DNA of 38,151 nt from Phycisphaeraceae bacterium (GTDB taxonomy: Bacteria; Planctomycetota; Phycisphaerae; Phycisphaerales; Phycisphaeraceae), in the NCBI GenBank assembly GCA_028280965.1, contig JANQKT010000121.1, positions 1 to 38,151 of the forward strand, given 5' to 3'. A model generated the notes under the pieces. That model did not search any database. It saw only the letters and a list, made by a program, of their open reading frames with translations, and had not been told where the DNA came from. Both the position numbers and the translations under genes were made by a program. Shown piece by piece: positions 2,940 through 28,886 of the stretch (the first letter of the stretch is position 1; every line of letters begins with the position of its first letter).

Positions 2940-3848
2940 CTACGCCGCAATCAACACATCCGCGACGCCCGCGACACCGAGCAGGATACTGATCACGCCG
3001 TTGACCGTGAAGAAGGCCATGCTGAGCCGGCCGGTCTTGCCGCCAAAGACCAGCGCGTGCTCAACGATCAGCAGCAGGCAGGCCACGATGGCGGCGATTG
3101 CAAACAGCACACCGAGTTGATCTGAAACAAGAGCGGTGGTAACGAGTGCCGTCGCCGACACCAGGTGCAGGCCCCGGCTGATCCACAACGCCCGCCCGAC
3201 GCCCAGCCGCGACGGGATCGAGTGCAGGCCGAACTCGCGATCGACCTCGGTGTCCTGCAGGGCGTAAAGGATGTCGAAGCCGGCGACCCAGCACAGCACC
3301 ATCAGTGCCAGCAGCCAGACGACGGGCGCGCCCAGGTATCCCGGCTCGATTGCGCTCGCGGCGGCGACCGGGCTGATCGCTAACGCGAATCCGAGCACGG
3401 CGTGGCAGAGCCAGGTGAAGCGCTTGGTGAAGCTGTACCCGCCGAGCACGGCGAGCACCGCCGGTCCGAGCAGCAGCGGCCAGCGGTTGTCAAAGAACAG
3501 CCAGAACCCCGCGGTCGTCAGAACGAAGCCAAGCGCGCAGGCGATGACGACGCCGAGCATGGTGGATTTCTTCACCCGCCCGCTGGGCACAGCCCGCCCC
3601 TCGGTCCGTGCGTTGCGTGCATCGATCCCCGCGTCGGCCCAGCGGTTGAGCGCCATCGCGAACGTCCGCGCGAGCACCATGCACAGCAGGATCAGCGCGA
3701 ACTCGCCCGCGGTCGGCGTCCGCCCGGACCAGCCCGCCGCAAGGAACGTGGCCAGGAGTGCGAACGGCAGCGCAAAGACCGTGTGGCTGAGCTTGATGTC
3801 GCGGGCGACGGCGACGAGCTGGGTTGGCAAAGACGGGGCGGAACTCAT
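2940..3848 (-). CDS. ubiA: UbiA-family prenyltransferase (4-hydroxybenzoate polyprenyltransferase type)
   Basis: An integral membrane enzyme that joins a polyprenyl diphosphate to an aromatic acid in quinone synthesis. The first Asp-rich motif is N68-x3-D72-x3-D76, within NRWADAGIDARNARTEGR. The second is in DILYALQDTEVDREFGLHS, near residue 195. About eight hydrophobic segments surround these motifs, and 302 residues is normal for the family. The downstream gene on the same strand is ubiX-like, a pairing seen in both the ubiquinone pathway and the futalosine menaquinone pathway, where the homologue is called MqnP. Anaerobic or microaerobic planctomycetes commonly use menaquinone, so MqnP is a real alternative. 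The start has no Shine-Dalgarno sequence; a TAAACT box lies exactly 6 bases upstream of ATG. Confidence 0.92.
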   Translation of the reverse strand: MSSAPSLPTQLVAVARDIKLSHTVFALPFALLATFLAAGWSGRTPTAGEFALILLCMVLARTFAMALNRWADAGIDARNARTEGRAVPSGRVKKSTMLGVVIACALGFVLTTAGFWLFFDNRWPLLLGPAVLAVLGGYSFTKRFTWLCHAVLGFALAISPVAAASAIEPGYLGAPVVWLLALMVLCWVAGFDILYALQDTEVDREFGLHSIPSRLGVGRALWISRGLHLVSATALVTTALVSDQLGVLFAIAAIVACLLLIVEHALVFGGKTGRLSMAFFTVNGVISILLGVAGVADVLIAA

Positions 3849-3854
3849 CTGCGG

Positions 3855-3860
3855 AGTTTA
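3855..3860 (-). promoter_or_regulatory. -10 box of a probable leaderless promoter, ubiA-like gene
   Basis: On the minus strand the sequence reads TAAACT-CCGCAG-ATG. A -10-like hexamer six bases before the start codon would put transcription initiation at or next to the ATG. There is no Shine-Dalgarno sequence and no convincing -35. The same arrangement precedes 5369-6031 and ptsI. Confidence 0.5.
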
Positions 3861-3937
3861 ACTGCGATCCGGGCTCGACCCCATGGCGTGCCGCAAAACC
3901 GGCATGCCGCGGGCTTGAAAGAAAAGAGGAATCGGTT

Positions 3938-3963
3938 CCCTACTCCCTACTCCCTACTCCCTT
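3938..3963. repeat. CCCTACT short tandem repeat
   Basis: Three perfect copies of CCCTACT (3938-3958) followed by CCCTT. The array lies at the 3' end of the ubiX-like gene. It encodes that protein's last residues (KGVGSRE) and its stop codon, so a change in copy number would alter the C-terminus. The unit is 7 bases, so each gain or loss shifts the frame. Confidence 0.85.
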
Positions 3964-4590
3964 CCTCAGCACCTTCTCGCTCCACCTGATCTTCAGATCG
4001 TGCTCGACGCCAACCAGGTCCAGCACCCGCCCGACAACGAAATCAACCAGGTCCTCGATCGAGGAGGGAAGCATGTAAAAGCCCGGCTGCGCGGGGCAGA
4101 CGATGGCGCCCGCCTCGGTAACAGCCTGCATGTTCTTGATATCAATCAAAGAAAGCGGCATCTCGCGGTGGACGAGCACAAGCTTCCGCCGTTCCTTAAG
4201 CGTCACGTGCGCCGCGCGGTGGACGAGGTTCTGCCCCATGCCCGACGCGATCGCGCCCAGCGAGTTGGACGAGCACGGCACGATGATCATCCCGTCGTGC
4301 CTGAACGAGCCGGACGCGATCGTCGCACCGACATCACGGAAGCTGTGCAGAATCAGGTTGTCCGGCTTGTCGCTCTCTTCGGGCAGGCCCGCGAGCGTCG
4401 CCAGGCCCGCCGGCGACAGGCCCTCGAGCCCGAGCTCGTCATGCAGCAGCCGCTGGCCCAGCGGCGAGACGACCAGATGCGTCTCGATGCCCGCATCGAC
4501 CACCAGCTGGATCAGGCGGTGCGCGTACACCGCCCCGCTCGCGCCGGTGATGGCGACGACCAGGCGGCGGGGTTGTGCATCGGTGGGCAT
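3940..4590 (-). CDS. ubiX: UbiX-family flavin prenyltransferase
   Basis: Makes prenylated FMN, the cofactor of UbiD-type decarboxylases, from reduced FMN and dimethylallyl phosphate. The flavin-binding ITGASGAVYAHRL motif lies near residues 14-26. VPCSSNSLGAIASGMGQNLV and the following KLVLVHREMPLSLIDIKNM segment match the family's second half. PGFYMLPSSIEDLVDFVVGR is the expected C-terminal helix region. At 216 residues it is slightly longer than usual (about 190-210); the last seven residues come from a CCCTACT tandem repeat. A GGAG Shine-Dalgarno sequence precedes the ATG. It follows the ubiA-like gene's partner logic although that gene lies downstream. No ubiD is visible in the window. 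Confidence 0.94.
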   Translation of the reverse strand: MPTDAQPRRLVVAITGASGAVYAHRLIQLVVDAGIETHLVVSPLGQRLLHDELGLEGLSPAGLATLAGLPEESDKPDNLILHSFRDVGATIASGSFRHDGMIIVPCSSNSLGAIASGMGQNLVHRAAHVTLKERRKLVLVHREMPLSLIDIKNMQAVTEAGAIVCPAQPGFYMLPSSIEDLVDFVVGRVLDLVGVEHDLKIRWSEKVLRKGVGSRE

Positions 4591-4612
4591 GGCTTTGCTC
4601 CGTATACGCGTA

Positions 4613-4618
4613 AGTATA
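4613..4618 (-). promoter_or_regulatory. Candidate -10 box for the ubiX-like gene
   Basis: The minus strand reads TATACT about 22 bases upstream of the ubiX ATG, with the GGAG Shine-Dalgarno sequence between. This would allow the gene its own promoter, just past the end of the 4629-5372 gene. No good -35 is seen. The surrounding ATACGC...GCGTAT inverted repeat could instead be a weak terminator of the upstream gene. Confidence 0.35.
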
Positions 4619-4628
4619 GGCGTATCAC

Positions 4629-5372
4629 CTATTCATTCGCCTGCTTCGGCCGTACGGTTTCACGCTCGACGACCAGCGCATCCTCGCGGACCTCAAGCCC
4701 GACCAGCCGGCCGTCACGGCCGCGGTCGATCGGCAGCTCGATCGGCCCGGTCGGCGTGCCCTGCATCAGGTGCACCATCCGCTCGCTGTTGGATCGGCGG
4801 GCGATCTGGTCGATCGCGACCTCGGTCGGCATCGGCAGCCGACCGGCGGTCGCACCCGCGAGCCGGCTCGTCACCGTGCCATCCTCGCCCACATCGATCT
4901 CAAAGACCAGCGCGACGACCTGCTGGATGTCCCCGCTCTGCAGGTCGCAGGTAATCCTCAGCAGCCCCCCGCCGGCCGAGTCCACCATCGCCGCCTGCAC
5001 CGCGCTGGGCAGCCTGACGCCGACCTCCGCGAGCAGATCGATCCCCTCCGCCGCGAGCCAGACGTTGAAGTCGTCGTAGGGGATCTCGATGGTTCGGCGG
5101 TGGCCGTACAGGTCCGCAGCGGTCGTCGGCACCTCCGGCCCCGCGTCGCTCCACTCGGTCGCCAGGCGGTTGCGCAGGTTGTGGCTGATGACCTTCTTCT
5201 CGTCCTCCGAAAGCGCGGCGATGCGTTCCTGCTGCTCGGTCCAGTACGCCGGCGTGCCGACCATGCGTGACATGACCAACGCAACACCGAGCAACACGAC
5301 AAGGATCACCACGAACACGATCCCGAGCACGCGCACACCGCGCCTGCGTTGCGCATCGTGATCCGCACTCAT
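4629..5372 (-). CDS. Membrane-anchored protein of unknown function
   Basis: 247 residues; family not recognised. A short Arg-rich N-terminus is followed by one strongly hydrophobic segment (about residues 14-34), after which the protein is soluble, so it is probably anchored by a single helix with the bulk outside the cytoplasm. The exported part has alternating hydrophobic and charged stretches that look like beta structure (for example RRTIEIPYDDFNVWLAAEGI and LLRITCDLQSGDIQQVVALV). There are no catalytic motifs. The start at 5372 was chosen because it gives an ATGA overlap with the stop of the upstream gene and a proper hydrophobic anchor; the frame stays open further upstream but only inside that gene. 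The two genes are therefore probably co-translated. Confidence 0.8.
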   Translation of the reverse strand: MSADHDAQRRRGVRVLGIVFVVILVVLLGVALVMSRMVGTPAYWTEQQERIAALSEDEKKVISHNLRNRLATEWSDAGPEVPTTAADLYGHRRTIEIPYDDFNVWLAAEGIDLLAEVGVRLPSAVQAAMVDSAGGGLLRITCDLQSGDIQQVVALVFEIDVGEDGTVTSRLAGATAGRLPMPTEVAIDQIARRSNSERMVHLMQGTPTGPIELPIDRGRDGRLVGLEVREDALVVERETVRPKQANE

Positions 5373-6031
5373 CGGCCGGCCCCGTGCAGCACCTTCGCGG
5401 CGTCGGCGAGGCGCTGGTGCAGGATCTCGTGATCGCCGACCGCGGCGAGCGCACCGGCGAGCGCATCGAAGTACTCGACCGTGCCCGGCGGCTCCACGAT
5501 CGACGCAAGCGCCGCGTTCCCGAGCGCCTCGCTCGCCTGCATGAACCAGTGCGCAGGCGTCGGCGGCGCGGCCTGCTGCGCGTTGATCGTCTGGCCGACC
5601 CACTCACGCTTGGGCGCGGGCACCACCGCGGTCACACGCGGGCCACGGAACGTCGTGATCTGCCAGGCCTCGCTGCCGGCGTCGTTGTCGGCATACAGGA
5701 CTTCGACCGGCAGCGCCCCGGCACGCATCGTTAAGTCAAAAGATGCCGCACGCTCCGCGGTGACCGGCCGAATAAAAACAACACAGCCATGGCTGCGGTC
5801 CTCCGCATCATCCCGGTCCTGCCCCAGCGTGATCCACCCGTCGATCGCGGTCTGCCGGCGTTGCCGACGCGCCTCCTGCAACGGCAGCAAGACCCGCCGA
5901 ACCGCGACCCAGTCTTCCGCCTCTCTCGCCTGGGCCAGCGCTCCCAGGCACAGGGCCTCACATCTGGCGTAGTCCATCTCGGCCAGGGCCTGGCTGGCGG
6001 TCTGCATCTGATCGTCAAGCGTGGCAGGCAT
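5369..6031 (-). CDS. Protein of unknown function with helical, TPR-like N-terminus
   Basis: 220 residues; not assigned to a known family. The first 65 residues (alternating Ala, Leu, Glu and Arg, including QALAEMDYARCEALCLGALA and DWVAVRRVLLPLQEARR) look like two or three TPR-type helical hairpins. The middle contains a beta-rich stretch with GCVVFIRPV and PVEVLYADND. The C-terminus is again helical, Ala-rich. No signal peptide or membrane segment is seen, so the protein is probably cytoplasmic. It shares a 4-base ATGA overlap with the membrane-anchored protein gene downstream, so the two are likely functional partners. A TAAACT box stands 6 bases before the ATG and there is no Shine-Dalgarno sequence. 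Confidence 0.8.
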   Translation of the reverse strand: MPATLDDQMQTASQALAEMDYARCEALCLGALAQAREAEDWVAVRRVLLPLQEARRQRRQTAIDGWITLGQDRDDAEDRSHGCVVFIRPVTAERAASFDLTMRAGALPVEVLYADNDAGSEAWQITTFRGPRVTAVVPAPKREWVGQTINAQQAAPPTPAHWFMQASEALGNAALASIVEPPGTVEYFDALAGALAAVGDHEILHQRLADAAKVLHGAGR

Positions 6032-6037
6032 CGCAAC

Positions 6038-6043
6038 AGTTTA
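6038..6043 (-). promoter_or_regulatory. -10 box of a probable leaderless promoter, gene 5369-6031
   Basis: The minus strand reads GCTAAACT-GTTGCG-ATG, so the hexamer TAAACT is exactly 6 bases from the start codon, as for the ubiA-like gene and ptsI. The region where a -35 would lie falls inside the family 4 inverted repeat (6051-6131). Confidence 0.5.
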
Positions 6044-6050
6044 GCTTGAG

Positions 6051-6131
6051 ACAGCCGCGACGCGACGCGTCGCAGGCCCGACGAAGATGCATGCCCCATC
6101 ACCCTCCTGCGACGCGTCGCGTCGCGGCTGT
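6051..6131. repeat. REPIN-like inverted repeat, family 4
   Basis: Two 26-base arms (6051-6076 and 6106-6131) are perfect reverse complements separated by 29 bases. Each arm also contains the smaller palindrome GCGACGCGTCGC. It occupies the gap between the AEC transporter stop and the start of the unknown-function operon, and overlaps the expected promoter region of the latter. No second copy was seen in the window. Confidence 0.8.
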
Positions 6132-6144
6132 AAAGACGAGAAAC

Positions 6145-7194
6145 TCACAGCATCGGTGCCACGATCAGGATCACCGGTAAAACGACCAGGCAGAACACCG
6201 CGGTATTGACCACCCACACACTCCCGGCCATGCGCGCGTCCAAATGGAACAGGTTCGCGACGATCACGCTCTGGATCGCCGCCGGCATGAACGCGATCAG
6301 GACAAACGTCTGCTCGAGCATGGCCGGCGGCGGGGTCAGGCCGACCCGTTTCGCGATCAAAAGCAGACCGATCGTCAGCGCCGGTGTGGCGATGAACTTG
6401 ACCCCGGCCAGCACCGCGTGTGATTTGAGGTGCAGGCGGAGCTGGTCCACGTGCAGCCGCATGCCGACGCCGAAGTACGCCGTCGCCGAGCCGATGAAGA
6501 TGAAGGCCTTGAGGATGTGCCAGTCATCAATGAGTTGCGGGCGTGGGGCTCTCAGATAAGCAAGCGTGATCCCGGCGGCGGCCGAGTAGAACAACATCGC
6601 CTTCCAGTCAACGAAGCTCTTAAAAATAATCCGCCCGATCGAGTCGTCATCCTTGCGGTGCTCGCCGAAGTGCTGGACCATCGGGAACAGGAAGACGACG
6701 ACGGCCATGGACATCGTCATCACGATGAGCATGCCGTACGCGAGCGCATCGCCCGACAACTCCTCCACCTGCTTAGCCGAGAGCATGCCCTCGGGCCCGA
6801 CCTGCTGGCGAAGCAGATCGCCGACGGGCAGGACCGCGTAGGCCAGGAACGCCCCGAGGGCGAAGCCGCTGTTGCGCAGGCCCGCGCCCAGCGCGAGCAC
6901 GCCGACCTGGTCCCGCCGCAGCCCGATCGCCTTGGCCAGCGGGATAATCAGGAACGCGGGGATAACCACCAGCAGCGGCTCGATCGCGAGCACCCAGAGG
7001 TTCGCCGGCACGGGATCCAGGTTCCACAATGCGAGGAACCCCGCGATACTCCACAGCACGACAATCGTGAACCAGTGGATCTTGCGGCTAAAGTCCTCGC
7101 GCAGCCAGCCGCGCTCGCGGGCGAGGTAGCCGCCGACGATCGACAGCGCGCTCACGGCCATGAGCGCAAAAAATTCGAGGGTGCGGGGGTCCAT
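6145..7194 (-). CDS. AEC-family (auxin efflux carrier type) transporter
   Basis: A 349-residue, highly hydrophobic protein with about ten membrane-spanning segments in two blocks of five separated by a charged stretch (about residues 170-190, around EHRKDDDSIGRI). This is the layout of the AEC/BART superfamily. Supporting stretches are AGLRNSGFALGAFLAYAVLP in the first half, and KFIATPALTIGLLLIAKRVG plus AFMPAAIQSVIVANLFHLD in the second. Family members export small organic acids or act as malate or malonate permeases; the substrate here is unknown. The gene stands alone between two REPIN elements. The ATG is preceded by TAAGCG at 6 bases, a near-miss to the leaderless pattern of other genes here. 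Confidence 0.85.
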   Translation of the reverse strand: MDPRTLEFFALMAVSALSIVGGYLARERGWLREDFSRKIHWFTIVVLWSIAGFLALWNLDPVPANLWVLAIEPLLVVIPAFLIIPLAKAIGLRRDQVGVLALGAGLRNSGFALGAFLAYAVLPVGDLLRQQVGPEGMLSAKQVEELSGDALAYGMLIVMTMSMAVVVFLFPMVQHFGEHRKDDDSIGRIIFKSFVDWKAMLFYSAAAGITLAYLRAPRPQLIDDWHILKAFIFIGSATAYFGVGMRLHVDQLRLHLKSHAVLAGVKFIATPALTIGLLLIAKRVGLTPPPAMLEQTFVLIAFMPAAIQSVIVANLFHLDARMAGSVWVVNTAVFCLVVLPVILIVAPML

Positions 7195-7216
7195 GCGATT
7201 CGCTTAAACCGTATCC

Positions 7217-7286
7217 GGGAGGGCGAGGCTCCTGCCGAGCCGCGAGTTTTCTGTGATTGGTGGCTCGGCAGGAGCCTCGCCCTCCC
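7217..7286. repeat. REPIN-like inverted repeat, family 3
   Basis: Perfect 25-base arms at 7217-7241 and 7262-7286 (outer ends GGGAGGGCGAGG, inner ends CTGCCGAGCC) with a 20-base T-rich centre. It lies between the end of lysC and the start of the AEC transporter gene, both on the minus strand. Only one copy is present in the window. Confidence 0.85.
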
Positions 7287-7299
7287 ATCCAAACACAAG

Positions 7300-8664
7300 T
7301 CACCCCAGCTCGCGCGGCTGCGAGTCTTCCGAGACGAACGCGCGGTAGATCGCCTGCACCGCCTTCTCGAAGTCCTGCACGTCCGTGCCGACGATGATGT
7401 TCATCTCGCTCGAGCCCTGGTCGATCATGCGGATGTTGACGCCCGCCTCGCCGAGCGCGGCGAACAGCTTCGCCGACGTCCCCGGCAGCTTCGCCATACC
7501 CCGGCCAACCGTTGCGATGAGCGCCAAGTTGTTGTCGATGTCGATGCGGTCGGGCTTCACCGCCGACCGGATCGCCTCGACGACTTCATCGAGCGACTCC
7601 TCGATGGCGGTGTCTTCGATCACCACGCTGAGCGTGTCGATGCCCGAGGGCATGTGCTCGAAGCTGATGTTTTGGTTGGCCAGCACCTCGAGCACACGCT
7701 TGCCGAAGCCGATCTCGCTGTTCATCATCGCCTTCTCGACCTGGATGATCGTGAAGTCCTTGCGCCCGGCGATGCCCGTGATCTGGTAGCTCAGCTTCGC
7801 GCGCGGGTGGTCGCCGGCGACGATCAGCGTGCCCGGGTGGTCGGGGTCGTTGGTGTTGCGGATGTTGACGGGGATGCCCGCGGCGCGGACGGGGAAGACC
7901 GCCTCCTCGTGCAGCACGCGCGCGCCCGAGTACGACAGCTCGCGCAGCTCGCGGTACGTCACCGCCTCGATCGTGAACGCGTCCGGCACGATGCGCGGGT
8001 CGGTGATCAGCAGGCCGTGCACATCCGTCCAGTTCTCGTAGACGCCGGCCCCGACGCCGCGGGCGACGATCGCGCCGGTCACATCCGACCCGCCCCGGCC
8101 GAATGTCTTGACGTTTCCGTCCGCGCCCAGCCCGAAGAAACCGGGCACGACAGCCCCCCCGGCATCTCCTACCCCCAACCGATCGGCGACCGCCCGGTAG
8201 GTGCGATCTTCATCCAGCCGGCCGCGCTCGTTGAAGAAGATCATCTCGGTCGGATCGACGTAGTCAAAGCCCAGCAGCGCCGCGATGATCCGACCGTTGA
8301 TCGCCTCGCCCCGGCTCGCCGCGTAGTCCGCGGGCAGGCCGCGGTTGCCGTGGTCGGCGATGACCGCCTCGGCCTCGTCTAAGAGCGCGTCCAGACCCAG
8401 CGACACCCCGAGTTCTGCGACGATCGTGCGGTACCGCTCACAGACCGGGTCCCACGCGTCGTCGAACGACAGCCCCTTGCTCGCCAGATCGTGGCAGAGG
8501 TACAAGAGGTCGGTGACCTTCGTGTCCTGGCCGCTGCGCTTGCCCGGGGCCGACGGCACGACAAACCGCCGATCCGGGTCGGCGCGCACGATATCCTGCA
8601 TCTTGCGGATCTGGGGGGCGGAGGCGAGCGAGGTCCCGCCGAACTTGGCGACTTTGATGGGCAT
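7300..8664 (-). CDS. lysC: Aspartate kinase
   Basis: Phosphorylates aspartate with ATP, the first step towards lysine, diaminopimelate, methionine and threonine. The N-terminal kinase motif KFGGTSLAS starts at residue 7. The catalytic GRGGSDVTGAIVARG and TDVHGLLITDPRIVPDA segments follow. The last about 150 residues hold two ACT domains (AMMNSEIGFGKRVLEVLA and LIATVGRGMAKLPGTSAKLF), the usual site of feedback inhibition by lysine or threonine. The frame is open to 8703, but MPIKVAKFGG at 8664 is the typical start. At 454 residues it is monofunctional, with no homoserine dehydrogenase fusion. No other pathway gene lies nearby except metK much further right. Confidence 0.96.
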   Translation of the reverse strand: MPIKVAKFGGTSLASAPQIRKMQDIVRADPDRRFVVPSAPGKRSGQDTKVTDLLYLCHDLASKGLSFDDAWDPVCERYRTIVAELGVSLGLDALLDEAEAVIADHGNRGLPADYAASRGEAINGRIIAALLGFDYVDPTEMIFFNERGRLDEDRTYRAVADRLGVGDAGGAVVPGFFGLGADGNVKTFGRGGSDVTGAIVARGVGAGVYENWTDVHGLLITDPRIVPDAFTIEAVTYRELRELSYSGARVLHEEAVFPVRAAGIPVNIRNTNDPDHPGTLIVAGDHPRAKLSYQITGIAGRKDFTIIQVEKAMMNSEIGFGKRVLEVLANQNISFEHMPSGIDTLSVVIEDTAIEESLDEVVEAIRSAVKPDRIDIDNNLALIATVGRGMAKLPGTSAKLFAALGEAGVNIRMIDQGSSEMNIIVGTDVQDFEKAVQAIYRAFVSEDSQPRELG

Positions 8665-8909
8665 GGGGCGGCCTATGGATGGATAAACCGGACACGATAG
8701 CAACTTGAAGCATGGCAGGCCGTCGGCAGAACGGCATGAGCGATCTTCCCGGTCCGGGGTTGTGGCCCGGCCGGCCGTAGCGTCTTAACTCTGTGGCAAT
8801 AGCGAAGCGATCAATGCGTTATGTCCGTATCGGTGCGCGGGATCGATCACTTCTCCATACCAGGCTTGGCCGCCCCGGGCGTTGCTGCTGAGCGGAGGGC
8901 TGTCAAACG

Positions 8910-11408
8910 ATGACCGACCGTGAATACCTGGATGCCTATGTCCGGACCGGGGACCGCGACGCCTTGAGCGCGCTGGTCTGTCGGCACCGGTCGCTGGTGT
9001 ACCGGGTGTGCCGCCGACGTTTGGCACGTCATGACGATGCACTGGACGCGACGCAGGAGGTATTCCTCTGTCTCTGCCGCAACGCCGGCCGCATCCATCG
9101 CGATCTGGCCGGGTGGTTGGCCTGCTGCGCGTCGAACACCGCCGTGTCCTACATCCGCTCCCACGTAGCGAGGCGTCGGCGTGAAACAGAGGTACGCCGG
9201 CCCGAGTCCGTCGCGTGGCAGGACCCGGCCGAGCCTGCGGAGACCGCGTGCATTGTGCGTGCGTGCCTGTCGGAGTTCAACACCGAGGACCGAGCGCTGC
9301 TGGAGTCGCATCTGATCGAGGGCCGGACTCAGTCGGCGATAGCCTCGGAACTGGGGATCTCGCAGCAGGCGGTTTCCAAACGGCTGGCCCGGCTGAAAGA
9401 GACGCTGCGTTGCGATCTGATTCGGCGGGGTGTGGCCTCGCTAGCCGCCGCCCTCGCCGGGCTCGCGCCCGGCCGGCTGGTGCAGGCGGGGCTGGGCCAG
9501 CTCACCGGGGCGCTCTGCTTCGCCAAGCCAATCAAGACGGCCATCGTCATCACCGGGCTGACCACGATCGCGCTGCAGCCGACAGCGACCGGGCCCGATC
9601 ACGCCGAGCGTTCATCGGCGTTACCCACAAGCGCATCGCCGGCCTCCGAGCGCACGCACACGCCGTCATGGACGCTCGCGGGCGCGCTCATCCGGACCGA
9701 TCCAGTGCCGAGCCTGAATCGGTCCCGAGCGGAGCATCCCGCGACTCGCATAGCCCCAGGCGTGCACCGTCCGGGCATAACCCATCGCTTCGGAACGCAC
9801 ATAACCGGGCCCCCCCTGCTCACGCATCGCATCGAGCCGAGCAGCCCCGGCATCGAATCCGCCTATACCGATGGCACAAATGCCAACCCGCCGAGTACAA
9901 ACCCGGCGGACCGGTGGAGCACACCGACACAGCGCGGCGCGGCGCTGATGCTGGAAGAACCCATGTCGAACCCACCGGCTCAAGACACGACACCACACGG
10001 CCAGTCGCAGCACTCGGCGGATGACGGATCGGCGACACATAACCCGCAGGCCGATCGCGCAACGGGTCAAACCCTGGCTTCGGTTACCCGCGCACATCGG
10101 GTCGACCCCGCGGACGCGCGGATTAACGCGCTATCTCTTGTCGCGGCGAACGAAGACAGACAAACGATAAATGGTGTGGTTGTGGATCAGATGGCGGCGA
10201 CGACTGCATTACGGACGCGCAAGGAAGCGATACCTTTCGCGGCCGTGAGCACCCCCGCCCATGACCCGGAGCAAGCTATGCCCAGCCGCCTGCGACGTCT
10301 TCAACTGACCTCGGCCCTCGGCGCGGTCGCGCTGCTTGAACCCGCCACCGCGTTCGCAGGCGTGACCGTCGATAACCCGGACCAGGCCGCGTACGATGCG
10401 CTGATCGGCGAGCCGGCCTACGACACCGTTGGGCTGATTACCTGGAGCGGCGGCCTGGCCTCGGGTGTCTACCTCGGCCAGGGTTGGGTCGTCACCGCCG
10501 CCCATGTCGCAGAGGAATCTGCCACCTTCGGCTTCACGATCGGCGACACGTCTTACGCCTCGCAAGCGATCTACCTACACGACCAATGGGATGGCAACGC
10601 CGCTGCAGGCAACGACATTGCTTTGATCCGGATCGACGGGGACACCGACGAGCTCGCAACCGCGCTGCTCTATGAGCCAACCGATGGTGGCGACGAGATC
10701 CTTGATACCGCCGCCACCTACACCGGCTACGGGCGGACCGGCCAAGGCAGCACCGGTGACACTGGCAGCGCAGGCGAACTCAACGGCGGGCAGAACCTCA
10801 TCGAGGCCTTCGGCCAGGACAACTTCATGCTCGCCAGCTACGACGATTCGATCTTCTTCGCGGACTTCGACGACCCCGACGCCTTGTCCGACGGCCTGCC
10901 TTGGAGCGACAATCAAGCCCTTGTACTCGAATATATGATCGCCGGCGGTGACAGCGGGGGCGGCGTCTTTGTCGATGCCGACGGCCAGGCCGCCCTCGTC
11001 GGCATCAACTCCTTCGTCCTCGCGCGCGACGGCGAACCCGACAGCGACTACGGCGACATCGCCGGCGCCACCTACCTCCCCGACTACTACGACTGGCTCA
11101 CCGACATCACAGGCCTCGCGCCCTCGGCGTTTAGCGCGCTCGAAGGCGACCTCGACTTCGACGGCGACATCGACGATGCCGACCTCGGCTTGGCCTTCGC
11201 CGCCTTCTCCGGGCCCGGCGTCTTGACGGGCAACCCCGCTGCCGACCTGGACCGCGACGGTGACGTGGACGACGCGGACCTGGGCCTGGTTTTCGCCGCG
11301 TTCACCGGGCCAGCCGACCCCGAGGCTGTCCCCGAGCCCACGGCCCTGGCCCTGCTCGCCATCGCCGGCACCGCACTGGTCTGCCGACGCCGCCGGCCCA
11401 CACGGTAA
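8910..11408 (+). CDS. ECF-type sigma factor fused in frame to a secreted S1 protease with dockerin repeats and PEP-CTERM tail
   Basis: One uninterrupted frame of 832 codons with a GGAGGG Shine-Dalgarno sequence 10 bases before the ATG. Residues 15-90 are a sigma region 2 (DALDATQEVFLCLCRN) and about 115-170 a sigma region 4 with helix-turn-helix (GRTQSAIASELGISQQAVSK). Residues 208-223 are hydrophobic and may cross the membrane. Residues 229-456 are a Thr/Pro/Ser/His-rich linker. At 457-484 is a signal-peptide-like stretch, then a trypsin-fold protease with His532 (TAAHV), Asp569 (NDIALI) and Ser682 (GGDSGGG). Two DxDxDGDxDDADLG repeats (about 746 and 780) follow, then VPEPTALALLAIAG and a basic tail. 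ATA, TTA and AGA codons, rare in neighbouring genes, cluster in the linker. It may be a true fusion, or two genes whose join stayed open by chance; see the alternative entry at 10278. Confidence 0.7.
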   Translation: MTDREYLDAYVRTGDRDALSALVCRHRSLVYRVCRRRLARHDDALDATQEVFLCLCRNAGRIHRDLAGWLACCASNTAVSYIRSHVARRRRETEVRRPESVAWQDPAEPAETACIVRACLSEFNTEDRALLESHLIEGRTQSAIASELGISQQAVSKRLARLKETLRCDLIRRGVASLAAALAGLAPGRLVQAGLGQLTGALCFAKPIKTAIVITGLTTIALQPTATGPDHAERSSALPTSASPASERTHTPSWTLAGALIRTDPVPSLNRSRAEHPATRIAPGVHRPGITHRFGTHITGPPLLTHRIEPSSPGIESAYTDGTNANPPSTNPADRWSTPTQRGAALMLEEPMSNPPAQDTTPHGQSQHSADDGSATHNPQADRATGQTLASVTRAHRVDPADARINALSLVAANEDRQTINGVVVDQMAATTALRTRKEAIPFAAVSTPAHDPEQAMPSRLRRLQLTSALGAVALLEPATAFAGVTVDNPDQAAYDALIGEPAYDTVGLITWSGGLASGVYLGQGWVVTAAHVAEESATFGFTIGDTSYASQAIYLHDQWDGNAAAGNDIALIRIDGDTDELATALLYEPTDGGDEILDTAATYTGYGRTGQGSTGDTGSAGELNGGQNLIEAFGQDNFMLASYDDSIFFADFDDPDALSDGLPWSDNQALVLEYMIAGGDSGGGVFVDADGQAALVGINSFVLARDGEPDSDYGDIAGATYLPDYYDWLTDITGLAPSAFSALEGDLDFDGDIDDADLGLAFAAFSGPGVLTGNPAADLDRDGDVDDADLGLVFAAFTGPADPEAVPEPTALALLAIAGTALVCRRRRPTR
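10278..11408 (+). CDS. Alternative reading: separate secreted trypsin-like protease from an internal start
   Basis: Inside the 8910-11408 frame, ATG 10278 has a GGAG Shine-Dalgarno sequence 6 bases upstream. It begins a 376-residue protein with a classic signal peptide: basic MPSRLRRLQL, hydrophobic core TSALGAVALL, and cleavage expected after ATAFAG. The mature part is an S1 protease with an intact His76, Asp113, Ser226 triad, two dockerin-type Ca-binding repeats (about 290-305 and 323-338), and a PEP-CTERM sorting tail (VPEP, hydrophobic helix, then CRRRRPTR). Such proteins are exported and processed by an exosortase at the membrane. This start makes topological sense of the protease; it leaves the sigma factor gene without its own stop codon. 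Confidence 0.6.
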   Translation: MPSRLRRLQLTSALGAVALLEPATAFAGVTVDNPDQAAYDALIGEPAYDTVGLITWSGGLASGVYLGQGWVVTAAHVAEESATFGFTIGDTSYASQAIYLHDQWDGNAAAGNDIALIRIDGDTDELATALLYEPTDGGDEILDTAATYTGYGRTGQGSTGDTGSAGELNGGQNLIEAFGQDNFMLASYDDSIFFADFDDPDALSDGLPWSDNQALVLEYMIAGGDSGGGVFVDADGQAALVGINSFVLARDGEPDSDYGDIAGATYLPDYYDWLTDITGLAPSAFSALEGDLDFDGDIDDADLGLAFAAFSGPGVLTGNPAADLDRDGDVDDADLGLVFAAFTGPADPEAVPEPTALALLAIAGTALVCRRRRPTR

Positions 11409-12016: not shown

Positions 12017-12191
12017 TGGGTCATGCGTCTACCGGCGAAAGTGGTTTTAGATTCATCCTCACCGAAAAGAAGACAAAAGAACAAGATGGCGCGCTCGAAA
12101 TCTGATACGACGGGCTATATTGGTTGGCGCATCTCTTCACGGCTCATGCCTCTCTTGCCAAACATTCACCGCCCCACAACAGGAGGCGCTG

Positions 12192-12956
12192 ATGCGGACA
12201 CACAGCCCCAGCCGTGCCTTCACTCTGATTGAGTTGCTGGTTGTGATCTCGATCATCGCCCTGCTGATCGCGTTCCTGCTCCCGGTGCTCGGGCCGGCCC
12301 GACGCAGCGCCCAGTTCATGGTCTGCATCGCTCAGATGCAGGACTTCACGGAGGCCCACGTCTCCTACGTCCAGGACCACAACGGCTTTGTAGTGCACCC
12401 CAACTGGGGCCCGGCCTCGGGCGGGTGGCTGTACGCCGTGCCGCGCGGCAACGGCTGGGACGCGCCGCAGGGCAAGAGCTTCGAGGCCCGCCGACAGATG
12501 CGCGAGACCGGGCTGCTCTGGGATTACCTCAACGGTGAAGGCCAGCACTACTACTGCCCGACCGACAACGGGCCGTACGACAACCAGCCCGGCGACGGCC
12601 TGCCCCCTATCCCCGTGCGCGCGATGACCAGCTACCAGTTCAACGGTGCGTTCAGCGGCTACGGCGGCAGGGGCCTGCCCGACGGCTGGGACACCAATTC
12701 CCACGACGACTTCCGCCCCAACGACATCATGATGTGGGAGTGCGACGTGACCACCACCCGCGTGCACGGCGGGTTCTGGAACGACGCGGGCAACCGCCCG
12801 GACGAGGGGCTGGAGGTCCGTCACATCGAGGGCGCGCCAATCGCCCGGATCGATGGCAGCGCTGAACGGATCGCGCATGACGAGTACTACCGGATCGAGC
12901 GCCTGCCGCAAAAAAATGAGCTGTGGTGCAACCCCGGGACAACAAACGGCCGCTGA
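12192..12956 (+). CDS. Prepilin-type N-terminal cleavage/methylation domain protein
   Basis: 254 residues. The N-terminus is a type IV prepilin signal: a short basic leader, then AFTLIELLVVISIIALLIAF, with cleavage before Phe and Glu at mature position 5. The remaining exported part is rich in Gly, Asp, Asn, Tyr and Trp (for example GQHYYCPTDNGPYDNQPGDG). It resembles the large, poorly understood planctomycete family of pseudopilin-like surface proteins often found as many paralogues. A perfect AGGAGG lies 5 bases upstream of ATG 12192, so the longer frame from 12120 is not used. The protein would need a prepilin peptidase and a type II secretion or pilus system encoded elsewhere. Its specific role is unknown. 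Confidence 0.9.
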   Translation: MRTHSPSRAFTLIELLVVISIIALLIAFLLPVLGPARRSAQFMVCIAQMQDFTEAHVSYVQDHNGFVVHPNWGPASGGWLYAVPRGNGWDAPQGKSFEARRQMRETGLLWDYLNGEGQHYYCPTDNGPYDNQPGDGLPPIPVRAMTSYQFNGAFSGYGGRGLPDGWDTNSHDDFRPNDIMMWECDVTTTRVHGGFWNDAGNRPDEGLEVRHIEGAPIARIDGSAERIAHDEYYRIERLPQKNELWCNPGTTNGR

Positions 12957-13202
12957 GCCCCGAGCCGGCCGAACGCAGACAGGCATATCAGCTGCGCAAT
13001 TGTTAGCATCAAGGCGAATAAAAAGGTCCCGTCCGGGGGGCAGCCGAACGAGACCCGATCCAGGGTGGAGGTTGTCGCGGCGGTCGTGGGCGTTGGCCCG
13101 TCTCGCTCGCGGCCCCGCGTCGTTGTTCGGCGTTGTTGCCGCCGTCGCTCGCAGGACAGGGGTAGTTACCAATTCAGCCGGCGACGATGCCAGCCGGGGA
13201 TG
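12957..13202. other. Gap without a recognised gene
   Basis: Between the prepilin-like gene and the fumC terminator. It includes a G/C-rich stretch (about 13060-13150) with interspersed GTTGTT and GCGGC runs. No start with Shine-Dalgarno sequence, tRNA or strong hairpin was seen. An open frame crosses part of it but has no family features and runs on through fumC antisense. Confidence 0.5.
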
Positions 13203-13231
13203 AAAAAACCCCACGCCCAAGCGGCGCGGGG
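13203..13231 (-). terminator. Rho-independent terminator of fumC
   Basis: Read on the minus strand, a stem CCCCGCGCC/GGCGTGGGG (13231-13209) with a 5-base loop is followed by six T (13208-13203). It lies about 100 bases beyond the fumC stop. Confidence 0.85.
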
Positions 13232-13253
13232 GTCGGTCTGTAACGGTCGTGAA

Positions 13254-13334
13254 GCGGGTGACGCGCAGCGTTCCCGGCAGAGTGATCTAAACGAGCGTGG
13301 GACGCCCCGCATCGCCCGCGAAGCGCGGTCACCC
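13254..13334. repeat. Degenerate REPIN, family 1
   Basis: The left arm GCGGGTGACGCGCAGCGT (from 13254) matches the family 1 arms at 31104 and 33637. The right arm (13299-13319) is the partial reverse complement with GGGACGCC and CGCCCGC. It lies between fumC and its terminator and touches the last codon of fumC. Confidence 0.6.
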
Positions 13335-14750
13335 TGGCCGCGTCATCGCGTCGTAGTCCATCAATTCTTCCAGACGCTCGGCGGGCATCAGGTTCAGCTC
13401 GCCCACCAGCTGCTTGATCGTCTTGCCCTCCTTGTGGGCCTGCTTGGCCAGGTCGCTGCACTTGTCGTAGCCGATCTCTGGGGCCAACGCCGTGATCGTC
13501 ATCAGCGACGCATCCAGCAGCTCGGCGCAGCGGGCCTCGTTGACCTCCAATCCAACCAGCAGCTTGTCAACAAAGACGTTGCAGGCGTTCGACAGCAGCG
13601 TGACGGACTCGAGGAACGCATCAATCATCACGGGCATCGCGACGTTGAGCTCGAAGATCGACCCAACCCCGCCCAGCCCGGCGGTGGTGACGGTCGCGTC
13701 ATTACCAATCACCCGGCAGCAGACCTGCATGACCGATTCGCAAATAACGGGGTTGACCTTACCGGGCATGATCGACGACCCGGGTTGGATCGCGGGCAGG
13801 TTGAGCTCGCCGATCCCGCAGCGCGGCCCGGACCCGAGGTGGCGGATGTCGTTGGCGATCTTGGAGAGGGAGACGGCGATGGTTTTGAGGTGGCCGTGGG
13901 CCTCGACAAACGCATCTTTAGCGGCTTGAGCTTCGGTATGCACTTCTGCTTCGGCAAATTCAATCCCGATGCGTTCAGTCAGTGTGGTGCAAACCATCGC
14001 GGCAAACTTTGGGTGGGCATTGATACCTGTCCCGACCGCGGTACCACCGATCTCAAGATCATCGCACATGCACTTGGTTGCGTAGGTGGCATTGGCGTGC
14101 CCCTGCCAAGCTTGCCGGGCATAGCCCGCAAAGACCTGTCCAAGCCGAATGGGTGTCGCATCCATCAGGTGCGTTCGGCCGGTCTTCAAGATTGCGTCCC
14201 ATGCCTTGGCTTTTTCATCCAAGCCTGCTTGTAGGTTCTGCAAGGCAGGTTCAAGTATGCCTCGCGTACCCATCGCACCCGCAACATGCATCGCCGTCGG
14301 GAACGTGTCGTTGCTGGACTGCCCCATATTGACGTGGTCATTGGGGTGGACGCCGCCGTCGGCCTTGGTGGTCGCGCCCAGGCCAAGCTTGCCGTTGGCG
14401 ACCGTGGCGATCACCTCGTTGGCATTCATATTGGTGCTGGTGCCGCTGCCGGTCTGGTAGACGTCCACGGGGAAGTGAGCATCGTGCTTGCCCTGGGCGA
14501 CCTCGTCCGCGGCGGCGATGATGGCATCGGCCAATTCCGGGGGGAGCTTGCCGAGGTCTTTGTTGGCCTGGGCGCAGGCGGCCTTGAGGTGGCCGAAGGC
14601 GTGGATCACCGCCCCCGGAAGCGGGCGATTCGCGATCGGGAAGTTCGCGACGGCGCGGGCGGTGCTGGCGCCGTACAGCGCGTCGGCGGGGACGGGCATC
14701 TCGCCCATCGAGTCTTTTTCGATTCGGGTCGTTCCGGGGGTAGCTGACAT
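13329..14750 (-). CDS. fumC: Fumarate hydratase class II
   Basis: Iron-independent fumarase of the citric acid cycle (fumarate to malate), a homotetramer of the aspartase/fumarase superfamily. SSNDTFPTAMHVA, GRTHLMDATPIRLGQ and GTAVGTGINAHP mark the substrate-binding regions. The superfamily signature GSSIMPGKVNPVICESVMQV carries the mobile catalytic loop. At 473 residues it is a normal length. The GTGINAHP and DATPIRLGQ forms favour fumarase over aspartase. The frame is open to 14990, but MSATPGTTRIEKDSMGEMPV at 14750 is the usual N-terminus and has GAAGGA upstream. A TACACT -10-like box lies about 30 bases upstream. Confidence 0.95.
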   Translation of the reverse strand: MSATPGTTRIEKDSMGEMPVPADALYGASTARAVANFPIANRPLPGAVIHAFGHLKAACAQANKDLGKLPPELADAIIAAADEVAQGKHDAHFPVDVYQTGSGTSTNMNANEVIATVANGKLGLGATTKADGGVHPNDHVNMGQSSNDTFPTAMHVAGAMGTRGILEPALQNLQAGLDEKAKAWDAILKTGRTHLMDATPIRLGQVFAGYARQAWQGHANATYATKCMCDDLEIGGTAVGTGINAHPKFAAMVCTTLTERIGIEFAEAEVHTEAQAAKDAFVEAHGHLKTIAVSLSKIANDIRHLGSGPRCGIGELNLPAIQPGSSIMPGKVNPVICESVMQVCCRVIGNDATVTTAGLGGVGSIFELNVAMPVMIDAFLESVTLLSNACNVFVDKLLVGLEVNEARCAELLDASLMTITALAPEIGYDKCSDLAKQAHKEGKTIKQLVGELNLMPAERLEELMDYDAMTRPG

Positions 14751-14810
14751 CTCGTGGTCCTTCAATCGGGTGGGACCGCGAGTGTACAAAGATTGGATTG
14801 GTCTGCCTTG

Positions 14811-14945
14811 CCCCCTCTCCCTTCCAGGGAGAGGGTTGGGGTGAGGGTCCTGCGTGGAATTAGCAAAGAAACTTGAGGTGAGCCGCGTTCTGCTTAAAGA
14901 CCAACCCTCATCCCCCGCCTTCTCCCTGGCAGGGAGAAGGAGCCC
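14811..14945. repeat. REPIN-like paired hairpins, family 6
   Basis: Two related units in inverted orientation: 14811-14851, containing CTCTCCCTTCCAGGGAGAG, and about 14902-14945, containing CTTCTCCCTGGCAGGGAGAAG. GGGTGAGGGT of the first mirrors ACCCTCATCCC of the second. Each unit is a hairpin on its own. Similar CTCTCCCT...AGGGAGAG repeats are widespread in unrelated bacteria. It fills the gap between the coiled-coil gene's stop and the fumC start. Confidence 0.7.
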
Positions 14946-14952
14946 AAGCCAT

Positions 14953-17073
14953 TCACGCCGCGTCGTTGGCCTTCTTCGATGCTGGCTCATCCGGCGTGAC
15001 GCCTTGGAACGCGGCGTGCTGCGCCTTGCGCTTCACCTCGTTGAGCTGGGCCTCGAGCCGGCTGACGGCGAGGTCCACCATGCTCTGGGCACCGTCGCGC
15101 AGCTCGCCGATGCGTCGGCGGAGGGTCTGCTCGGCCTGGTCCACGACCTCGCGGGTCTGCGGCTCGATGTGGCTGGCCTGGGCCTTGACCTGGCGGGCGA
15201 CGACCTCGATCATCGACCGCGACGCGTCGCGCAGCTCGCCGATGTTGCCCCGCAAGGTCGCCTCGGCCTGCCGCAGCGCCTCGGCGGAGATGTCCTCGAA
15301 CTCGCGCAGCTTGTCGTCCAGGTCCGCCTGGGCCCGGGCCGCGGTCTGCTCGGCGGACTTCGCCAGCGCGTCGATCGACTCGGCGACCGCCTTGCCCGAC
15401 GACTCGGCGAGCTCGACGATCTTGGTGACACGCATCGCGGCGTCCTGCTCGACCTTGTTCAGCCGGCCGTCCACCGCGGCGATCGTCTCGTTGGTCGAGT
15501 TGGTCGCCAGCGCGATCCGCTGGGTGATGCCCGACTCGAACCCGGCCAGGCGCTGCTGCGCCTCGGCGATCGCGGACTCGGCCATGCGTAGCGCCTCGTC
15601 TTCGAACCGGCGCGTCGTCTTCTCGTAGCCGGCCAGACGCTGGCGTGACTCCTCGATCCCGTCCTCGACCTCGTCGTCGATCGCCTGCAGACGCGTCAAC
15701 GCGTTGGTCTGATACTCCTCGAGCTTGCGGTCCGAGACCTTGATCGCCGCGTCCACCGCCGTCGCGGCGCTGCGGTGGATGTGGTCGGCGGTCTGCTCGA
15801 TGACTTGCTGCGCCTTCTCGACACGCTGGTCCGCAAGGTCGCCGAGCCGCTTGAACTCCGCGTCGATCTTCGCGATCGCCTGCTCGGGCTCGATGCTGTA
15901 TTCGCTGACCGCGTCGCGCAGCTGCTGCCTGAACTGCTCGAGCGTCTGCTGCTGATTGGTCTTGCGGTCCTGCTCGATCTTCTCGATGAGCTGCTCGTAC
16001 CGGCCGAGCGCGTCGATCCGGGCGTCGTCGAGCTTGGCGATCAGGCCCTCGACGTAGCCGCCGGCGTCGTCCTCGGCCTCGCTGAGGTACGCGTCCAGCG
16101 CCTGGGCGACCTTGTCGCGCATGATCTGCTGGGCGCTGACCAGCGTCTTCTCGTCCTGGCCGGTCGCGATCTCCTCGGCCTGCTTGGCGACCGCTTCACG
16201 CAGCGCGTTCATCTGCTGCTGCACCTGCTCTTCCAGCCGGGCGGGCAACGCCCCGGCGAGCTCGTCGGCCCGGGCCTGCGCGTCGCCGACGATCTGGTTG
16301 AACCGGTCGGTCAGCGGGCTGAGCGCCTCGTCGACATCGACATCCAGCTCCGCGATGCGCGCCTGGATCGCCTCGCCGATCTGCGCCTGCTGGTCATGGA
16401 GGTGCCGATCAAGCTCGGCCTTGACCGGGCCGGCGAGGTCGGCGGCCTGCTCCTTCGCGGCGCGCAGCGCGCCCAGCAGGTGCTTGTCCACCGCCTCGTT
16501 GGCCTGCTTGTGCATCTGCTGCATCCGCGCGATGCGTTTGTCGATCTGCTCGTCGAGCGCGGTGAGCTGCTTGAGCCGCTCGGCGATCGGCGCTTCGGAA
16601 TCGGCCAGGTGCTGACGCACGTCCTCGGCGACCTGGCCGGCGGACATCTTGACGTGCTGCTTGGCTGCATCGACGTGCGCCTTGAAGTGCTGGGCCTGCT
16701 CGACCTGGATCGTAAACGCGGCGGTCGCTTCGGTGATCGTGTGCCTAAGCGACTCGAGGTATTGGGTCCGGCTGTCGATGTCCTGCTGGGCCTGCTCGAG
16801 CGCATCGAGCTTCTCGGAGACGACCTGATCCAGGCGCTCGACCTGCTGGCTGAGCTCCGTCAGCTTCGCATCGTTCGGTGCGGAAACGCCAGGCGTTGAT
16901 GTTGTACCGCCGTTAACGGGCAGGTCGGCGGAGTGCTTGACCAGGCGCGCGAGCTTGAGCCGCTCTTCCCGGGCGCGGTCGGCGGCGAGGCGCAGCTCAT
17001 CGAGCAGCGCCTGGCTGGAGGCCTGGGGCGAGTTGGCCGGGTGGTTGGACGGTCCGGGCTTGGACTTGGACAC
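14953..17073 (-). CDS. Long coiled-coil protein of unknown function
   Basis: 706 residues, almost entirely predicted alpha-helical and rich in Ala, Gln, Glu, Asp, Leu and Arg, with heptad-like spacing from about residue 70 to 690. No signal peptide, membrane segment or enzyme motif is seen. The N-terminal 40 residues (Ser/Pro/Asn-rich, Lys-rich) and the C-terminal tail (EPASKKANDAA) look disordered. Recurrent DxxIxxRI.. and AExTLRxxIGELRDxxxSM units near residues 600-680 suggest internal duplication, as in apolipoprotein-like or chromosome-partition-like coiled coils. GTG start with GGAGGG upstream. It lies upstream of fumC on the same strand but is separated from it by a REPIN. A structural or scaffolding role is only a guess. 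Confidence 0.85.
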   Translation of the reverse strand: MSKSKPGPSNHPANSPQASSQALLDELRLAADRAREERLKLARLVKHSADLPVNGGTTSTPGVSAPNDAKLTELSQQVERLDQVVSEKLDALEQAQQDIDSRTQYLESLRHTITEATAAFTIQVEQAQHFKAHVDAAKQHVKMSAGQVAEDVRQHLADSEAPIAERLKQLTALDEQIDKRIARMQQMHKQANEAVDKHLLGALRAAKEQAADLAGPVKAELDRHLHDQQAQIGEAIQARIAELDVDVDEALSPLTDRFNQIVGDAQARADELAGALPARLEEQVQQQMNALREAVAKQAEEIATGQDEKTLVSAQQIMRDKVAQALDAYLSEAEDDAGGYVEGLIAKLDDARIDALGRYEQLIEKIEQDRKTNQQQTLEQFRQQLRDAVSEYSIEPEQAIAKIDAEFKRLGDLADQRVEKAQQVIEQTADHIHRSAATAVDAAIKVSDRKLEEYQTNALTRLQAIDDEVEDGIEESRQRLAGYEKTTRRFEDEALRMAESAIAEAQQRLAGFESGITQRIALATNSTNETIAAVDGRLNKVEQDAAMRVTKIVELAESSGKAVAESIDALAKSAEQTAARAQADLDDKLREFEDISAEALRQAEATLRGNIGELRDASRSMIEVVARQVKAQASHIEPQTREVVDQAEQTLRRRIGELRDGAQSMVDLAVSRLEAQLNEVKRKAQHAAFQGVTPDEPASKKANDAA

Positions 17074-28798: not shown

Positions 28799-28855
28799 CA
28801 ACTAGCAATTGATTCAGGCCTCCGGCCTGACGACAGGCAGGAATGCCTGTCCCCC
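28752..28855. repeat. REPIN, family 2, copy 3 (overlaps the end of dxr)
   Basis: Arms at 28752-28775 and 28832-28855 match the RAYT-flanking copies. The centre differs and has an extra hairpin CAGGCC-TCC-GGCCTG (28815-28829). Its first 47 bases are the end of dxr; the rest lies between dxr and rseP. Confidence 0.9.
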
Positions 28856-28886
28856 TGAAAACAAACCACCAACGGATAACACCGAC

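Follow-up and report, generated by a model that had tools for sequence, protein, structure and literature searches.

Long exported extensions are already known from sigma factors, and many ECF groups carry extensions whose mechanisms are still unstudied, according to a review (PMC8999054). In ECF52, represented by SCO4117 of Streptomyces coelicolor and reported from Actinobacteria only, a single protein combines an ECF domain, a membrane segment, a proline-rich exported region and an exported domain, and proteolytic release has been proposed (PMC5826349, PMC8999054). In IutY (ECF243) of Pseudomonas putida, a sigma factor extended C-terminally into the membrane, it has been shown experimentally that cleavage by Prc and RseP is activating (PMC8999054). 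Proteins of the PEP-CTERM/exosortase system, in turn, have a C-terminal Pro-Glu-Pro, a hydrophobic stretch and a basic end (PMC1569441). The gene described here, from a bacterium of the Phycisphaeraceae, shares the domain layout of ECF52, the membrane extension of IutY and the tail of PEP-CTERM proteins, and its genome encodes exosortase. In the literature that we searched, we found no sigma factor that bears an exosortase sorting tail or is joined to an exported protease; Jogler 2012, Wiegand 2020 and Casas-Pastor 2021, the main surveys of planctomycete ECF factors, lie outside that search and may already list some.

The window, the 38,151-nucleotide stretch of DNA that we analysed, contains at 8910-11408 (+) a single open frame of 832 aa without a stop, based on its ORF listing; the features of this frame are collected in the table. 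An earlier note on this DNA had read the frame as an ECF sigma factor joined to an S1 protease with an intact triad and a PEP-CTERM tail, a reading that the ORF, the Pfam matches and the triad all confirm. The same note reported two dockerin repeats; two dockerin-like DxDxD repeats are present, with a weak Pfam Dockerin_1 match (aa 746-794, E 0.02, below cut-off). The fusion is flanked by an aspartokinase gene and a tRNA-Met, with a prepilin-like protein and a fumarase encoded farther out, and no anti-sigma factor was recognised among the genes flanking the fusion. The prepilin-type N-methylation protein (N_methyl 3.9e-7) is encoded at 12183-12953 of the window, 3' of the tRNA-Met.

Table. Features of the fused gene (positions in the window; aa, residues of the 832-aa frame)
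Feature	Position	Strand	Remarks
Shine-Dalgarno-like GGAGG	8894..8898	+	11 nt 5' of the sigma start codon
ECF sigma factor domain	8910..9410	+	region 2 aa 23-85, region 4 aa 116-166; Pfam, TIGR02937, helical model
Predicted membrane segment KPIKTAIVITGLTTIALQ, C-terminal to the sigma domain	9528..9581	+	about aa 207-224
Low-complexity linker, Ala/Thr/Pro/Ser-rich	9582..10277	+	~232 residues (aa 225-456), stop-free
GGAG	10268..10271	+	6 nt 5' of the internal ATG
Internal ATG and Sec signal-peptide-like MPSRLRRLQLTSALGAVALLEPATAFA	10278..10358	+	likely cleavage before GVT; read from the sequence
S1 serine protease, chymotrypsin/elastase-like	10359..11135	+	Pfam Trypsin, PDB profile matches, Foldseek
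Protease triad codons	H532 10503-10505, D569 10614-10616, S682 10953-10955	+	
Two dockerin-like DxDxD repeats	11145..11309	+	Pfam Dockerin_1 below cut-off; missing from the G064 fusion (alignment)
PEP-CTERM sorting tail, ending in VPEPTALALLAIAGTALVCRRRRPTR	11325..11405	+	Pfam PEP-CTERM below gathering score

The N-terminal part of the protein contains sigma-70 regions 2 and 4 and no region 3, as expected of an ECF sigma factor. The Pfam families Sigma70_r2 (3.4e-11) and Sigma70_r4_2 (2.7e-6) both match over their cut-offs, and the NCBIfam model TIGR02937 (sigma70-ECF) reaches 71.4 bits (cut-off 42.9); the scores for the planctomycete sigma subfamilies TIGR02984 and TIGR02989 of NCBIfam fall short of the curated cut-offs (30.3 versus 183.75 and 50.1 versus 124.55, respectively). 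The AlphaFold model, in which pLDDT is mostly 65-85 in the sigma domain and 20-30 in the linker, supports a predicted sigma fold and a disordered linker; with a mean pLDDT of 36 for the full protein it is uninformative past the sigma domain. The hydrophobic segment that follows region 4 is present at the same place in most sigma homologues, and a long C-terminal extension after it is usual among them. Two homologues in locus L119 of genome G029 (3180-8510 and 12489-16271) have very long extensions, in frames of 1776 and 1260 codons, and the extension of another (G414, L224 2122-5079) appears by eye to place a thioredoxin-like domain after leucine-rich repeats.

The C-terminal part has the chymotrypsin fold and the His-Asp-Ser triad of S1 peptidases. 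The best stretch of the Pfam Trypsin match covers aa 513-614 (1.7e-11), the best PDB matches by profile are elastases (4.5e-14), and a Foldseek search with a model of the protease ranked porcine elastase 1est first (4.4e-10); this model came from a shallow alignment and has a mean pLDDT of 64, with a better core. Because the S1-pocket position, six residues before the active serine, is occupied by Met, trypsin-like cutting after Arg or Lys would not be expected of this protease. The PEP-CTERM tail is weak in Pfam (E 0.0042 at aa 806-829, under the gathering cut-off) but clear by eye, with the PEP motif, the hydrophobic stretch and the basic C-terminus all legible in the sequence, and exosortase (EpsH) has three matches over the cut-off in the genome of the window (best 9.5e-47).

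Is the fused gene real? The earlier note had asked for the same domain order in other Phycisphaerae, and would have given the fusion up if its homologues invariably kept the halves as two genes, or if the linker concealed a stop codon or frameshift. The same fusion is found in Phycisphaera sp. IP29b_bin.17 (JANQPR010000071.1, hereafter G064), an independent assembly from another genus of the same family, as one 950-codon frame with 45% identity overall. The order in G064 is the sigma domain (44%), a hydrophobic segment, a linker of ~290 codons, a signal-peptide-like stretch, the protease (50-57%) and a PEP-like tail, which is atypical (PEV) and has no Pfam PEP-CTERM match; in the tree the two sigma domains are sisters (support 99/89). 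The linker of the window has 0 stops in frame and 4-7 in each of the five other frames; taking both linkers together, the in-frame count is 0 and the other frames have 2-9 each. In first-order simulations the chance of a stop-free linker is 0.024 for the window and 0.01 for the independent linker of G064. A hidden frameshift was considered and dropped, as no evidence for one was seen and the frame is open in both genomes. An assembly or sequencing error that joined two genes might be suspected of the window, which comes from a fragmented assembly of 263 contigs, but it is extremely improbable, because an independent assembly of a second genus has the same order and the same frame. From this comparison, neither ground for giving the fusion up applies, and the fused gene is judged to be genuine. 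We found no fusion other than that of G064 among ~1,000 sampled genomes (51 from the family, 400 from the order, 397 from the class and 392 from the phylum, with the two best candidates per genome scored in the class and phylum searches), and a contig scan of the genomes likewise returned G064 as the only one.

A separate question is whether the fused gene yields one protein or two. The N-terminus of the frame has no signal peptide; a stretch resembling one comes after the internal ATG at 10278. In both fusions a Shine-Dalgarno sequence lies 6 nt 5' of this protease ATG (GGAG in the window, AGGAG in G064, in whose frame it occurs at the protease ATG only), compared with 6-8% of internal in-frame ATGs in the long ORFs of these loci. 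Elsewhere the protease family nearly always occurs as unfused genes, whose frames for the most part span 300-500 codons and include a signal peptide of their own. One such paralogue of 388 codons (G000:C225, 57-58% identity) is encoded in the genome of the window; it starts at about the position of the internal ATG of the fusion, and a quick tree places it alongside the fused proteases (SH-aLRT 86-89), as expected if the internal start works and the protease part can act alone. Two more ORFs with PEP-CTERM tails adjoin this paralogue (L047 4691-8200). Since Shine-Dalgarno sequence, ATG and signal peptide are kept in both fusions and the protease family is nearly always stand-alone, we rate two products no less likely than one, and think that the long protein is probably accompanied by a protease made on its own.

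The alternative is that only one polypeptide is made, which enters the membrane so that its protease part faces outward and is cut by this protease or by signal peptidase, the internal ATG being an unused relic of the ancestral protease gene. The open frame retained in two lineages, with a stop-free linker in both, fits this, but two serial hydrophobic segments of inside-to-outside direction would be in conflict topologically, a well-spaced Shine-Dalgarno sequence and ATG are retained in both genomes, and the position of the paralogue in the tree is that expected of a working start; we consider a single polypeptide doubtful. The earlier note had called the topology awkward on account of a second hydrophobic stretch at aa 465-480. 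This stretch is the signal peptide of the protease, and the conflict would be removed if a separate protease is made from 10278. Thus, the proposal of that note, one protein with a sensor or protease outside and a sigma factor inside, gains from the fusion in a second genus and from a link between membrane sigma factors and proteases that the gene neighbourhoods described below strengthen, but a single product is not established.

We compared 97 sigma homologues whose extensions measure 60 aa or more, and found a PEP-CTERM-like tail in eight, those of the window, G064, G029, G045, G514, G568, G460 and G519, among which the membrane segment of the window is the least hydrophobic. The eight form one side of one branch of the sigma tree (71/88; 72% of bootstrap trees), and the tail requires a single change on this tree compared to 7.8 expected with shuffled labels. 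A gene for a PEP-CTERM S1 protease lies beside four of the six unfused PEP-tailed sigma factors, but beside 0 of the 89 others (Fisher p 4.7e-6), and when only loci with flanks of 6 kb or more are counted, beside 0 of 43 other homologues (p 7e-5); these p values are indicative, as G568 and G519 drew attention through matches to both parts, and the flanks differ in length. The two genes are divergent in G029, G568 and G460, where the neighbouring protease of G460 is a more distant trypsin, and in tandem in G519, with ~160 bp between the frames, an order that is plausible as a pre-fusion state. In G045 and G514 the PEP-tailed sigma factor has no adjoining protease. In both G568 (L205 5185-6571) and G460 (L222 5024-6393), sigma factor and protease are separated by two extra PEP-CTERM genes, one of them common to the two genomes (46% identity), which suggests a four-gene PEP-CTERM locus. 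The linked proteases were considered as a single clade, and the tree shows that they are not one; this suggests that the pairing of sigma factor and protease arose repeatedly. On the evidence of tree and gene neighbourhoods, then, the fusion is part of a wider putative sigma/PEP-CTERM protease module of Phycisphaerae.

These neighbourhoods bear on two further explanations. Two functionally unrelated genes might share a frame by chance with no stop between them, as each half has its own start, Shine-Dalgarno sequence and stand-alone homologues, and codon-position signal is weak in the linker; however, the stop-free junction recurs in a second genus despite the divergence of the two proteins, at the low probabilities simulated above, and unfused relatives of both halves adjoin each other, which makes a chance union very unlikely. 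A plain regulator-target pair, in which the protease gene and other exported genes are simply targets of the sigma factor and tethering or processing is irrelevant to control, would be consistent with the divergent and tandem layouts, which are common for such pairs, but it leaves both the fusion and the PEP-CTERM tails on sigma factors unexplained, and we regard it as improbable. A shared ECF-type promoter (AAC-N15-18-CGT) was not consistently above expectation 5' of the module genes.

We propose that the fused gene joins the two halves of a signalling module of Phycisphaerae, in which release of a membrane-tethered sigma factor is tied to exported PEP-CTERM partners, a proposal that we think has an even chance of being correct. 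One half would be an ECF sigma factor that a single segment anchors in the inner membrane and that continues outside as a disordered region, with a PEP-CTERM tail in the relatives; the other half would be a PEP-CTERM S1 protease, usually encoded next door. Inspection by eye of L048, L205 and L222 showed no internal signal peptide ahead of the PEP tail, and export of these tails should therefore depend on the sigma protein's own segment. Without a separate anti-sigma factor, the sigma domain would stay tethered in the cytoplasm and inactive until a trigger on the outside, either processing of the tail by exosortase or S1 protease cleavage in the exported region, led to regulated intramembrane proteolysis. 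The freed sigma factor would then transcribe PEP-CTERM genes, probably including its own. From the fused gene, translation starting at 8910 would give a tethered sigma-protease, and translation from the conserved Shine-Dalgarno sequence and ATG at 10278 an ordinary secreted protease. A tethered sigma factor freed by intramembrane proteolysis would be the most economical model. Exosortase is encoded in seven of the eight genomes with PEP-tailed sigma factors, and the eighth genome is 72% complete. The genome of the window has several matches to site-2 protease (M50); those at 28809-31097 of the window, in three pieces of one ORF 17 kb from the fusion, mark a candidate for intramembrane proteolysis.

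A more specific version of the model, which we put forward tentatively and consider rather unlikely, is an exosortase-gated transcription factor: processing of the PEP tail would report PEP-CTERM export, and this processing, or the partner S1 protease, would start the proteolysis that frees the sigma factor for transcription of PEP-CTERM genes. If the tethered-sigma model is true, the PEP-CTERM system would have a built-in report of its state to transcription, and the control of its little-understood export would become testable.

Compared with described systems, ECF52 is by its predicted domains the closest in layout, yet it differs in having a zinc finger and a carbohydrate-binding module. 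No zinc finger appears between sigma domain and membrane segment of the fusion in the 25 best Pfam rows, and aa 168-206 contain no HxxxCxxC; in place of a C-terminal carbohydrate-binding module, absent by Pfam, the fusion has the protease, the dockerin-like repeats and the PEP tail. The extension of IutY is a fused anti-sigma factor in siderophore signalling, whereas no anti-sigma domain was recognised in the fusion. The stand-alone PEP-CTERM S1 proteases of Phycisphaerae (G000:C225, and G568:C7 with 51%) share family, triad and tail with the fusion but, unlike it, are unfused and have their own gene with a signal peptide. PEP-CTERM proteins generally have an N-terminal signal peptide (PMC1569441), whereas in the fusion a sigma factor precedes the tail.
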